Positions 16,918-57,718 of a stretch of 64,000 bases of DNA are shown here, piece by piece (positions within the stretch are counted from its first letter, which is position 1; each line of letters begins with the position of its first letter). Made by a program: the position numbers and the translations under genes. This stretch comes from Haliea salexigens DSM 19537 (lineage in GTDB: Bacteria > Pseudomonadota > Gammaproteobacteria > Pseudomonadales > Halieaceae), in NCBI RefSeq assembly GCF_000423125.1, contig NZ_AUHJ01000010.1, positions 1 to 64,000 of the forward strand. Reading direction: 5' to 3'. The notes under the pieces were generated by a model. It did not search any database, had not been told where the DNA came from, and saw only the letters and a list, made by a program, of their open reading frames with translations.

Positions 16918-17576
16918 TCACGTTCGATCGTGTCAGCAAGCGCTACGCGGAAGGTCACGAGGCTCTGAGCGAAGTCAGCGTTGATATTCGCCAGGATGAA
17001 ATGGTGTTTCTCACCGGTCATTCGGGTGCCGGCAAGAGCACGTTGCTGCGGTTGATCATGCTCATCGAACGGCCCTCACGCGGGCAGGTTATTGTCGATG
17101 GCCTGAATCTGGCCAAGGTGGGGGAGCGCGGCATTCCCCGTCACCGGCGCAATATCGGCGTGGTATTCCAGAACCACCAGCTGCTGTTCGACCGCAGCGT
17201 ATTCGACAACGTTGCCCTGCCGCTGGTGATTGGCGGCTACGAACACCGGGAGATTGGCCGCCGTGTGCGTGCAGCGCTGGACAAGGTAGGGCTGCTGACG
17301 AAAGAGCGGGCGCTGCCTGTGACCCTATCTGGCGGTGAACAGCAGCGGGTGGGCATCGCCCGTGCGGTGGTAGCGCGCCCGCGGATCCTGCTGGCGGATG
17401 AACCCACGGGCAACCTCGACCCGGTGCTTTCGGCGGAGATCATGCAGTTGTTCGAAGCCTTCAGCCAAGTCGGCGTGACGGTATTGATTGCCAGCCACGA
17501 CCTGGCGCTGATCTCCCGCCTGCGCCACCGCATCCTGACCCTGCGTAATGGCCGTCTGGTCGGTGCGGGGTCATGA
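16914..17576 (+). CDS. ftsE: Cell division ATP-binding protein FtsE
   Basis: The 220-residue ABC ATPase works with FtsX at the septal ring and activates peptidoglycan hydrolases. Walker A is GHSGAGKST (about 36-44), the Q-loop is in VVFQNHQLL, the signature is LSGGEQQR and Walker B is ILLADEPTGNLD. Length and sequence fit FtsE. It overlaps ftsY upstream and ftsX downstream by four bases each (ATGA), so the proteins are probably made in fixed proportion. Confidence 0.97.
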   Translation: MITFDRVSKRYAEGHEALSEVSVDIRQDEMVFLTGHSGAGKSTLLRLIMLIERPSRGQVIVDGLNLAKVGERGIPRHRRNIGVVFQNHQLLFDRSVFDNVALPLVIGGYEHREIGRRVRAALDKVGLLTKERALPVTLSGGEQQRVGIARAVVARPRILLADEPTGNLDPVLSAEIMQLFEAFSQVGVTVLIASHDLALISRLRHRILTLRNGRLVGAGS

Positions 17577-18547
17577 GCGCCGCCGAGGGCAAGCCGCGTC
17601 GCGATGGTGCCAGTGCTCGCCGCACGCGCCTGCGCCACTTGCTCCAGGGCTGGCTGGCCCACCACCGGCTCTCCGCGGCAGATAGCCTGGCGCGTGTGCT
17701 CGACCATCCGTTTGCCAGTGCGCTTACCTGGCTGGTGATCGGCATTGCGCTGGCGCTCCCGGCTGCACTGACCGTGGCGCTGGACAATGCCCGCGCGCTC
17801 AGCGACCGTTGGGACAGCCCGGCGCAACTTTCTCTATTCCTGGGTGGTTCGGTGGGTGGCGAGGAGGCGCAGGCGTTGCAGGATACGCTCCAGCAGCGAC
17901 CCGACATCGAACAGGTGGTGTTTGTATCGCGCGACGATGCCCTCGCCGAATTCAGTGCGCTTTCCGGGTTCGCCGATGTGCTCGATACACTGGAGCGCAA
18001 CCCGCTTCCGGACGTTCTGCTGGTAACGCCCGTGCCCGGTAGCGACGCGCTGGCGCCGCTCTACGAACAGCTCAAGGATGACCCGCGCGTCGCGGAGGTG
18101 GTGCTGGACATGGCCTGGCTGGAGCGACTGAATACCCTTATGCAGCTTAGTCGGCGCGTGGTGCTGGCACTGGGTAGTGTGCTGGTGGCGGGGGTGGTGC
18201 TGATTCTGGGCAACACCATCCGGCTGGCCATCGAGAGCCGGCGCGAGGAGATCGTGGTGATCAAACTGGTCGGCGGCAGCAATGCCTTCGTGCGCCGCCC
18301 CTTCCTCTACACGGGCCTCTGGTACGGGGTGGGGGGAGGCGTGTTCGCGGCGCTGCTGGTGGCCTCGGCACTGTGGTTTCTCGGCGGGCCGGTGACACGC
18401 CTCGCCGAACTCTACCAGAGCAATTTCCGGCTCGGCGGCCTGGGCATCATGGGCAGCCTCAACCTGGTGCTCATCGGCGGTGTTTTGGGGTTGGCGGGCG
18501 CCTGGCTGGCGGTGACCCGGCACTTGCGCCTGATCGCTCCGCGCTAG
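17573..18547 (+). CDS. ftsX: Cell division permease-like protein FtsX
   Basis: The 324-residue inner-membrane partner of FtsE has a cytoplasmic N-terminus, a first membrane helix (HPFASALTWLVIGIALALPAA), a periplasmic domain that contacts EnvC-type activators, and three C-terminal helices in the FtsX/MacB core (VVLALGSVLVAGVVLILGNTIRLAI, RRPFLYTGLWYGVGGGV, LVLIGGVLGLAGAWLAV). The family motif RREEIVVIKLVGGSNAFVRRPF links to the ATPase. The rpoH gene follows after about 90 bases with its own promoter and operator. Confidence 0.96.
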   Translation: MSAAEGKPRRDGASARRTRLRHLLQGWLAHHRLSAADSLARVLDHPFASALTWLVIGIALALPAALTVALDNARALSDRWDSPAQLSLFLGGSVGGEEAQALQDTLQQRPDIEQVVFVSRDDALAEFSALSGFADVLDTLERNPLPDVLLVTPVPGSDALAPLYEQLKDDPRVAEVVLDMAWLERLNTLMQLSRRVVLALGSVLVAGVVLILGNTIRLAIESRREEIVVIKLVGGSNAFVRRPFLYTGLWYGVGGGVFAALLVASALWFLGGPVTRLAELYQSNFRLGGLGIMGSLNLVLIGGVLGLAGAWLAVTRHLRLIAPR

Positions 18548-18579
18548 GCAGGGCGCGCCTGCAGGGAACTTTTCCACCG

Positions 18580-18606
18580 TTAGCACTCTAATACAAAGAG
18601 TGCTAG
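18580..18606 (+). promoter_or_regulatory. CIRCE operator (HrcA site) at the rpoH promoter
   Basis: TTAGCACTC, nine bases, then GAGTGCTA plus one mismatched base (G for the final A) gives a near-perfect CIRCE inverted repeat, the binding site of the heat-shock repressor HrcA. A TTAGCA at 18580 and a TAGAAT at 18604 are 18 bases apart and could be the -35 and -10, placing the operator between them. The predicted transcript start lies only about 20 bases before the rpoH ATG. The hrcA gene is not in this window. Confidence 0.9.
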
Positions 18607-18637
18607 AATCGGGCACATGACAGAGGGGAAAAATCGC

Positions 18638-19492
18638 ATGAGTAAAGCGTTGCTGCCGGTCGACCAGATGGTCCCGGGCGCCAATCTTGCCGCCTACGTG
18701 CAGGCTGTAAGCACCATTCCGCTGCTCACACCGGAGCGCGAAAAGGCGCTGGCGGAAGACCTCTTTTTCAACAGCAATCTTGAGGCTGCACGCGAGCTGG
18801 TCATGTCGCACCTGCGCTTTGTGGTGCACATCGCCCGCAGCTACTCCGGCTACGGCCTGTCCGAGGCCGACCTCATTCAGGAAGGCAATGTAGGCCTGAT
18901 GAAAGCGGTCAAGCGCTTCAATCCGGAAAAGGGCGTGCGCCTGGTGTCGTTTGCCGTGCACTGGATCAAGGCAGAGATGCACGAGTTCATCCTGCGCAAC
19001 TGGCGCATCGTCAAAGTCGCCACCACCAAGGCCCAGCGCAAACTGTTTTTCAACCTCCGCGGTGCGAAGAAGGACTTGTCCTGGCTCAGTCACGAAGAGG
19101 CTCAGGCGGTAGCGGATGATCTGGGTGTTGATATCGCTGAAGTGCAGCGCATGGAAGGGCGGCTCAGTAGCCGTGATGTCGCCTTCGATTCACCGGTAGG
19201 GCAGGACGAAGACGACGCCTGGCAGGCACCGCAATATTACCTGGAAGACCAGCGTAGCGACCCCGCCCTGTCCGTTGAGTCGGACAATTGGCAGGAAAAC
19301 AGCGAAGAACAGCTCTACCACGCACTGTCTGAGCTGGATGAGCGCAGCCGCGACATCCTCGCCCAGCGCTGGTTGGCGGAGAAAAAGGCCACGCTGCACG
19401 AGCTGGCTGCCAAGTACGAGGTGTCTGCGGAGCGCATTCGTCAGCTCGAGCAGAACGCCATGAAGAAATTGCGCAGCGCGATCGCCGCCTGA
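18638..19492 (+). CDS. rpoH: RNA polymerase sigma factor RpoH (sigma-32)
   Basis: The 284-residue protein has the complete RpoH architecture. Region 2 includes SHLRFVVHIARSYSGYGL, DLIQEGNVGLMKAVKRF and VSFAVHWIKAEMHEFILRNW. The RpoH box QRKLFFNLR follows, then region 4 with the helix-turn-helix ATLHELAAKYEVSAERIRQLEQNAMKKLR. An upstream in-frame ATG exists at 18617, but AGAGGGGAA sits just before the ATG at 18638 and that start gives normal length. A CIRCE element overlaps the promoter, so transcription is probably repressed by HrcA. The short predicted leader leaves little room for an E. coli-like RNA thermosensor upstream of the start. Confidence 0.96.
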   Translation: MSKALLPVDQMVPGANLAAYVQAVSTIPLLTPEREKALAEDLFFNSNLEAARELVMSHLRFVVHIARSYSGYGLSEADLIQEGNVGLMKAVKRFNPEKGVRLVSFAVHWIKAEMHEFILRNWRIVKVATTKAQRKLFFNLRGAKKDLSWLSHEEAQAVADDLGVDIAEVQRMEGRLSSRDVAFDSPVGQDEDDAWQAPQYYLEDQRSDPALSVESDNWQENSEEQLYHALSELDERSRDILAQRWLAEKKATLHELAAKYEVSAERIRQLEQNAMKKLRSAIAA

Positions 19493-57121: not shown

Positions 57122-57634
57122 TCATCCGTTTTCGCCCGGTGGATACAGCGCAGCCAGGCGTTTGCGGCAATGTTGCAGCGCCTGCAGGATGTATTTCTCC
57201 ACGCTGGAGACGGAAACCTGCATGGCATTGGCGATCTCGCCGTAAGACAGGCCGTTGCGCCGATGCAGCAAAAACGCCTGGCGCACGTTCAGAGGCAACT
57301 CTTCCACGGCCGCCATGATCAGGCTGAGTTTTTCGCGCGCACCAAGAATATGTTCGGGTGAGGCCGCACTGCCGTTGATATCCGGCGCTTCCCCCTCATC
57401 GGCTTGCTGGCGTTCGCCGTGCATGAACTGCAGGTGCAATTTGCGCCGCCGCAACTGATCCACGGCCAGGTTGGTGGCGACTTGGAAAAGAAAGGCCCGG
57501 GCGTTGTCGAGAGTCTCCGGGGATTGCAGTCGGTGCAGGCGCAAAAAGGCTTCCTGAGCGACTTCCGCGGCGTCTTCCGGGCTGTCCAGTTTGCGCGCCA
57601 GATAGCGTTCCAGCGCGCTGCCGTGGTCATTCAC
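57122..57634 (-). CDS. ECF sigma factor, FecI-like
   Basis: The 170-residue protein has region 2 (LDSPEDAAEVAQEAFLRLHRLQ...ARAFLFQVATNLAVDQLRRRK) and region 4 (MAAVEELPLNVRQAFLLHRRNGLSYGEIANAMQVSVSSVEKYILQALQHCRKRL) of FecI-type ECF sigma factors. It would direct RNA polymerase to the receptor genes when released by FecR. The only standard start is GTG 57632-57634. The in-frame codons before it (encoding SKNAFLARL) look like the normal beginning of such proteins but offer no ATG, GTG or TTG. The true start may therefore be non-canonical or the N-terminus slightly short. Confidence 0.9.
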   Translation of the reverse strand: MNDHGSALERYLARKLDSPEDAAEVAQEAFLRLHRLQSPETLDNARAFLFQVATNLAVDQLRRRKLHLQFMHGERQQADEGEAPDINGSAASPEHILGAREKLSLIMAAVEELPLNVRQAFLLHRRNGLSYGEIANAMQVSVSSVEKYILQALQHCRKRLAALYPPGENG

Positions 57635-57718
57635 CAGGCGCGCGAGAAAGGCATTCTTGCTGTTAGCGACGACCGTGATGGTGAAACCCTCGTAGTAGCG
57701 CGGCGTGCCGGGCGGTCG

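Follow-up and report, generated by a model that had tools for sequence, protein, structure and literature searches.

The repressor HrcA very probably stands above sigma-32, the product of rpoH, in Haliea salexigens DSM 19537 and its relatives. A CIRCE box between ftsX and rpoH is, with good confidence, an operator of HrcA that overlaps the promoter region of rpoH, where it would block both a sigma-E-type and a sigma-70 promoter as part of a GroEL-sensing loop. This reading is built on features visible in the sequence, namely the box, the hrcA and rpoE genes, the promoter-like elements, their conservation, and co-occurrence across genomes. The features concerned lie in the window (the whole stretch of DNA that was analysed, 64,000 nucleotides) as follows:

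17573 to 18547, forward strand: ftsX, the upstream neighbour, with 32 bases from its end to the box
18565 to 18571, forward strand: predicted sigma-E-type -35 element GGAACTT, 8 nt upstream of the box, position conserved
18580 to 18606, forward strand: CIRCE operator, 1 mismatch in 18, with arms at 18580-18588 and 18598-18606
18587 to 18591, forward strand: predicted sigma-E-type -10 element TCTAA, whose TC closes the left arm and whose TAA opens the spacer
18601 to 18609, forward strand: predicted extended -10 element TGCTAGAAT of a sigma-70 promoter, which overlaps the right arm of the box
18622 to 18628, forward strand: AGAGGGG, judged from its sequence to be the probable ribosome-binding region of the start at 18638
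18638 to 19492, forward strand: rpoH (sigma-32) from its preferred start, the reading frame being open from an ATG at 18617

The box, TTAGCACTC-TAATACAAA-GAGTGCTAG, agrees at 17 of 18 positions with the full CIRCE consensus that was scored, TTAGCACTC-N9-GAGTGCTAA. With up to three mismatches allowed, neither the window nor the rest of the 4.26-Mb genome has another CIRCE site, and none arose when the window was shuffled 100 times with its dinucleotides preserved. A prior sequence-only reading of this DNA had described a near-perfect CIRCE box overlapping the predicted rpoH promoter, and both descriptions are borne out: the box also covers the only sigma-70-like match in 18400-18760 (TTAGCA-18-TAGAAT, 9 of 12 positions, with TG preceding the -10). 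The arrangement that defines an HrcA/CIRCE regulon, TTAGCACTC-N9-GAGTGCTAA near a promoter, is found at rpoH with its one mismatch in 18 and its overlap with promoter-like elements. Perfect GCACTC-N9-GAGTGC cores occur at exactly two places in the genome, at groESL and at rpoH. Cores with up to two mismatches number 201, against 183 in a reversed control, and sites beyond the two perfect ones were therefore discounted.

The open reading frame downstream of the box encodes RpoH (TIGR02392, 393 bits; equivalog cut-off 323). Its probable start at 18638, 31 nt from the end of the box, is preferred over the ATG at 18617 for its better ribosome-binding sequence and better alignment to relatives. The ATG at 18617 would coincide with the sigma-70 transcription start, expected near 18616, and an automatic start call may be seven codons too long. 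The distance from the end of the box to the position aligned with 18638 is 27-34 nt in 13 of the 16 named box-carrying loci. It is about 53-56 nt in L023, L025 and L039 (two Luminiphilus MAGs and Halieaceae CPC75), whose matches start at query residue 8 (printed distance 74-77). These three loci have a divergent layout, possibly with an upstream ATG, and GGAACTT with at most one mismatch is absent from its usual place in them. The leader to 18638 would measure about 22 nt from the sigma-70 start and about 40 nt from a sigma-E start expected near 18598, in keeping with the very short leader of the sequence-only reading. Its corollary, that little room is left for an upstream RNA thermosensor, does not exclude control of translation: the thermosensor element of E. 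coli rpoH lies mostly inside the coding sequence, so a short leader is no bar to one here. The fold of 18616-18846 was no better than shuffles (z 0.66), and an Rfam scan for a thermosensor gave no match.

The genome encodes one HrcA protein (PF01628, E 3.5e-61; TIGR00331, 323 bits, cut-off 197), on whose presence the proposal of HrcA control had been made to depend; its DNA-binding domain is barely over the cut-off (PF03444, 22.6 bits versus 21). Open reading frames downstream of hrcA were recognized by eye as grpE and dnaK. Of the further CIRCE boxes expected at groESL and dnaK, the former was found as a perfect core ending 104 bases before groES, but the whole-genome core search found no perfect core upstream of hrcA, grpE or dnaK. 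A core with one mismatch (C6:91226-91246, L006), about 1.3 kb upstream of hrcA, is probably due to chance, given the number of two-mismatch sites relative to the control. The groES box of this genome (C6:202943-202963, L003/L013) has degenerate outer bases (CTGGCACTC...GAGTGCCAG) and four mismatches to the full consensus; the boxes of the other 12 groES loci examined have zero or one. Visual comparison with the RpoH motif given in a passage of PMC3247240 identified sigma-32-like promoters upstream of groES (CTTGAAT-N12-CCCCAATAT) and upstream of both grpE and dnaK (CTTGAAA with a C-rich -10-like sequence). The predicted HrcA regulon thus consists of groESL and rpoH, with sigma-32 predicted to act on groESL, grpE and dnaK.

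Among relatives, the rpoH box follows hrcA closely. A set of 97 genomes was assembled from the home family (61 genomes, including that of the window) and 36 other families in the order, with a single representative per family. Genes for HrcA are present in 73 of these, namely every one of the 61 from the home family and 12 from elsewhere in the order (G002, G034 and G049, with hrcA in pieces or in part only, were scored as present), and 24 genomes have none. Up to 260 nt upstream of rpoH were inspected in 95 genomes; the two left out, both hrcA-positive, were G033, whose rpoH sits at the end of a contig, and G049, which had no rpoH match. A CIRCE box with at most three mismatches is found at rpoH in all 71 assessable hrcA-positive genomes (zero, one, two and three mismatches in 52, 16, 2 and 1 of them, respectively), versus 1 of the 24 hrcA-negative genomes, the remaining 23 of which have at least five mismatches. 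The hrcA-positive genome with three mismatches, G085, has a damaged right arm. Beyond the home family, the box is present in 12 of 12 hrcA-positive genomes versus 1 of 24 hrcA-negative ones. Fisher's test gives p 4e-21 when each genome counts separately and 4e-9 when the home family is treated as a single case; neither is fully corrected for relatedness, which inflates genome counts. In a second, named set (50 of the 80 named rpoH loci, partly overlapping with the 97 genomes), hrcA is present in 15 of 16 box-carrying and 0 of 34 box-less genomes. Two genomes have the box and no hrcA match: G074 (locus L239, 96% complete), whose box has one mismatch, and a Luminiphilus MAG, L023. In both, hrcA could have been lost recently or could lie in sequence missing from the assembly. 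The best RpoH tree (quick method, 79 rows) has eight changes of hrcA and seven of the box, and its starred branches provide two independent pairs, with the box following in one and unchanged in the other (sign test p 1), the tree being too weakly supported for counting independent losses. The co-occurrence is strong indirect evidence in favour of HrcA control of rpoH; together with the presence of hrcA and the CIRCE box at groESL, it supports the earlier proposal that this repressor sits above sigma-32.

That proposal had overlooked that the box overlaps two predicted promoters, one of sigma-E type and one extended -10 sigma-70 promoter. HrcA would not take the place of control by another sigma factor, given the predicted sigma-E-type promoter that overlaps the box. 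This promoter reads GAACTT-N15-TCTAA, its spacer of 15 being one below the 16-17 of the RpoE/AlgU motif GAACTT-N16-17-TCcaA (as quoted in a passage of PMC3247240). RpoE itself is encoded in the genome (C1:342535-343086, 324 bits, cut-off 236). Another RpoE-like ECF sigma factor is encoded in the window (57146-57658, reverse strand) and scores 60 bits, under the RpoE cut-off. Among the 71 hrcA-positive genomes, GGAACTT with at most one mismatch is found 8 or 9 nt upstream of the box in 63, versus 43 of 14,200 mononucleotide-shuffled controls; the best GGAACTT with up to two mismatches has a gap of 8 in 57 and of 9 in 10. The spacer starts with TAA in 59 of 71 rpoH boxes versus 0 of 13 groES boxes (the latter read by eye), and the final T of the extended -10, outside the box, is conserved in 70 of 71. 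Because the TC of TCTAA and the TGCTA of the extended -10 are part of the CIRCE consensus itself, only GGAACTT, the TAA of the spacer and the final T independently support the promoters. GGAACTT is 7 nt from the box in G058.

HrcA may instead block only the sigma-70 promoter, with the sigma-E-type promoter escaping repression or not being real, so that envelope stress would bypass HrcA. Three genomes (G030, G052 and G096) that retain the box with no recognizable GGAACTT in place are in line with this. It is nevertheless unlikely, since in most hrcA-positive genomes the left arm and the sigma-E-type -10 have bases in common, with the -35 at a fixed spacing, and bound HrcA should accordingly exclude either polymerase.

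Much less probable still is that the palindrome is retained solely for the promoter elements in each arm and not as an HrcA site. What speaks for it is that promoter elements survive at loci without the box: GGAACTT and TGNTANNNT, with one mismatch allowed in each and 35-37 nt apart, were found at 42 of 64 named box-less rpoH loci versus 78 of 6,400 shuffles, and at 15 of the 26 such loci outside Pseudomonas. A palindrome kept for its promoters would not be expected to track hrcA as this one does, absent from 23 of 24 negative and present in 71 of 71 assessable positive genomes, and groESL has the same palindrome under a different promoter layout. When the ten CIRCE positions outside the promoter elements were scored at 20 box-less loci with this geometry (15 named, 5 other), 97 CIRCE-like matches were counted versus 62.5 (sd 5.8) after shuffling, and 0 of 2000 shuffles reached 97. 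This is a hint that box-less loci may carry decayed boxes after the loss of hrcA, which promoter constraints outside the model could mimic. A repressor other than HrcA, for which only the box-carrying G074 and L023 with no hrcA match could be cited, is the most improbable reader of the box, since the box and hrcA otherwise always go together in the two genome sets and CIRCE is described as the operator of HrcA in passages of PMC545781.

With HrcA as the repressor of both promoters, the circuit may operate as follows, HrcA binding, dual repression and GroEL sensing being the steps that we infer. HrcA, held active by GroEL, would bind the box and cover both -10 elements, that of sigma-E type in the left arm and the extended -10 of sigma-70 in the right. 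Unfolded protein occupying GroEL, or inactivation of HrcA by heat, would release rpoH and groESL. Sigma-32 would then drive groESL, grpE and dnaK from their sigma-32-like promoters, and the restoration of GroEL would reactivate HrcA and close the loop. HrcA binding in Campylobacter jejuni is stimulated by GroE and impaired by heating, according to a passage of PMC8533110; if these effects are valid here, a low level of free GroEL would release rpoH and groESL together. For P. putida, the authors of PMC4263515 draw from an algU mutant the conclusion that AlgU primarily controls rpoH at 45 degrees, in support of a promoter of sigma-E type at the rpoH gene of relatives.

The arrangement is not special to this genome: it is family-wide and spread across the class, and a CIRCE at rpoH had been predicted earlier for Geobacter sulfurreducens (PMC545781). 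The exact pattern AACTT-N(8-16)-CIRCE core with TA was present in 97 of 370 Gammaproteobacteria, the 97 spanning 75 genera, in a pattern search that included five genomes of the home order; the reversed-pattern control gave no matches among the rows listed. On inspection, 28 of 30 pattern loci were upstream of rpoH with at most one mismatch in the box, and in the other two no rpoH was found in the locus. A search with a gap range of 12-22 gave 19 of 391, an undercount, as this range missed the spacing found here and in most of the family; a gap range of 2-32 found the pattern in 56 of the 97 genomes of the order-wide set. On balance, the element of about 45 bp may be regarded as a three-input gate that is ancestral for much of the class and at which sigma-E, sigma-70 and HrcA vie for the same bases upstream of rpoH. 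Lineages that lost hrcA, namely Pseudomonas and probably E. coli, would then have kept bare promoters while the palindrome decayed. Such a gate, at the head of the heat-shock response in Gammaproteobacteria, would link envelope stress to the capacity of GroEL in the cytoplasm.

CIRCE at rpoH has been predicted before, and its overlap with both promoters is new as far as the literature was searched. In the open-licence literature, no description was found of CIRCE over the rpoH promoters of Gammaproteobacteria, which is weak evidence of absence, nor any account of the class-wide spread of the promoter-overlapping rpoH box and its link to hrcA. The 2003 study of Permina and Gelfand is said to cover the gamma-proteobacteria and may already report rpoH sites.

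Known systems resemble this one in different parts. Within the genome itself and in relatives, the classical HrcA/CIRCE system at groESL has the same operator as rpoH. In contrast to the rpoH box, the groES box is directly upstream of a sigma-32-like -35 (by eye, 12 of 13 loci have CTTGA no more than 13 nt beyond the box), and groES loci have no GGAACTT at the rpoH spacing. In Geobacter sulfurreducens, CIRCE sites were predicted in 2004 upstream of rpoH (position -51) and groESL (PMC545781, Table 8), the same two targets as here. In that species CIRCE is also found at hrcA-grpE-dnaK-dnaJ, where this genome has no perfect core, and the passages of PMC545781 on CIRCE make no mention of a sigma-E-type promoter overlapping it. 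The Pseudomonas rpoH promoter is AlgU-dependent according to passages of PMC4263515 and PMC4585239. In many Pseudomonas rpoH loci, as in the locus described here, GGAACTT is followed at 35-37 nt by an element resembling an extended -10, but the Pseudomonas loci have no CIRCE, and hrcA was absent from the eight Pseudomonas genomes tested.

In E. coli, rpoH has the sigma-E promoter P3 as well as sigma-70 promoters. The one E. coli genome compared shares the ftsX-rpoH order with this one and has GAACTT-N16-TCTGA upstream of rpoH, but CIRCE is absent (best match 8 mismatches in 260 nt), and the HrcA profile had no match in the E. coli control genome. The textbook account of sigma-32 control derives from E. 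coli, a species without HrcA. If HrcA stands above rpoH in a substantial fraction of the Gammaproteobacteria, the scheme known from E. coli may be derived, one layer having been lost. Sigma-32 synthesis would then be coupled to GroEL capacity at the level of transcription, and sigma-E control would act on top of this through the same bases. Such a system would allow the study of how an operator and two promoters co-evolve, and of how they decay once the repressor is lost.
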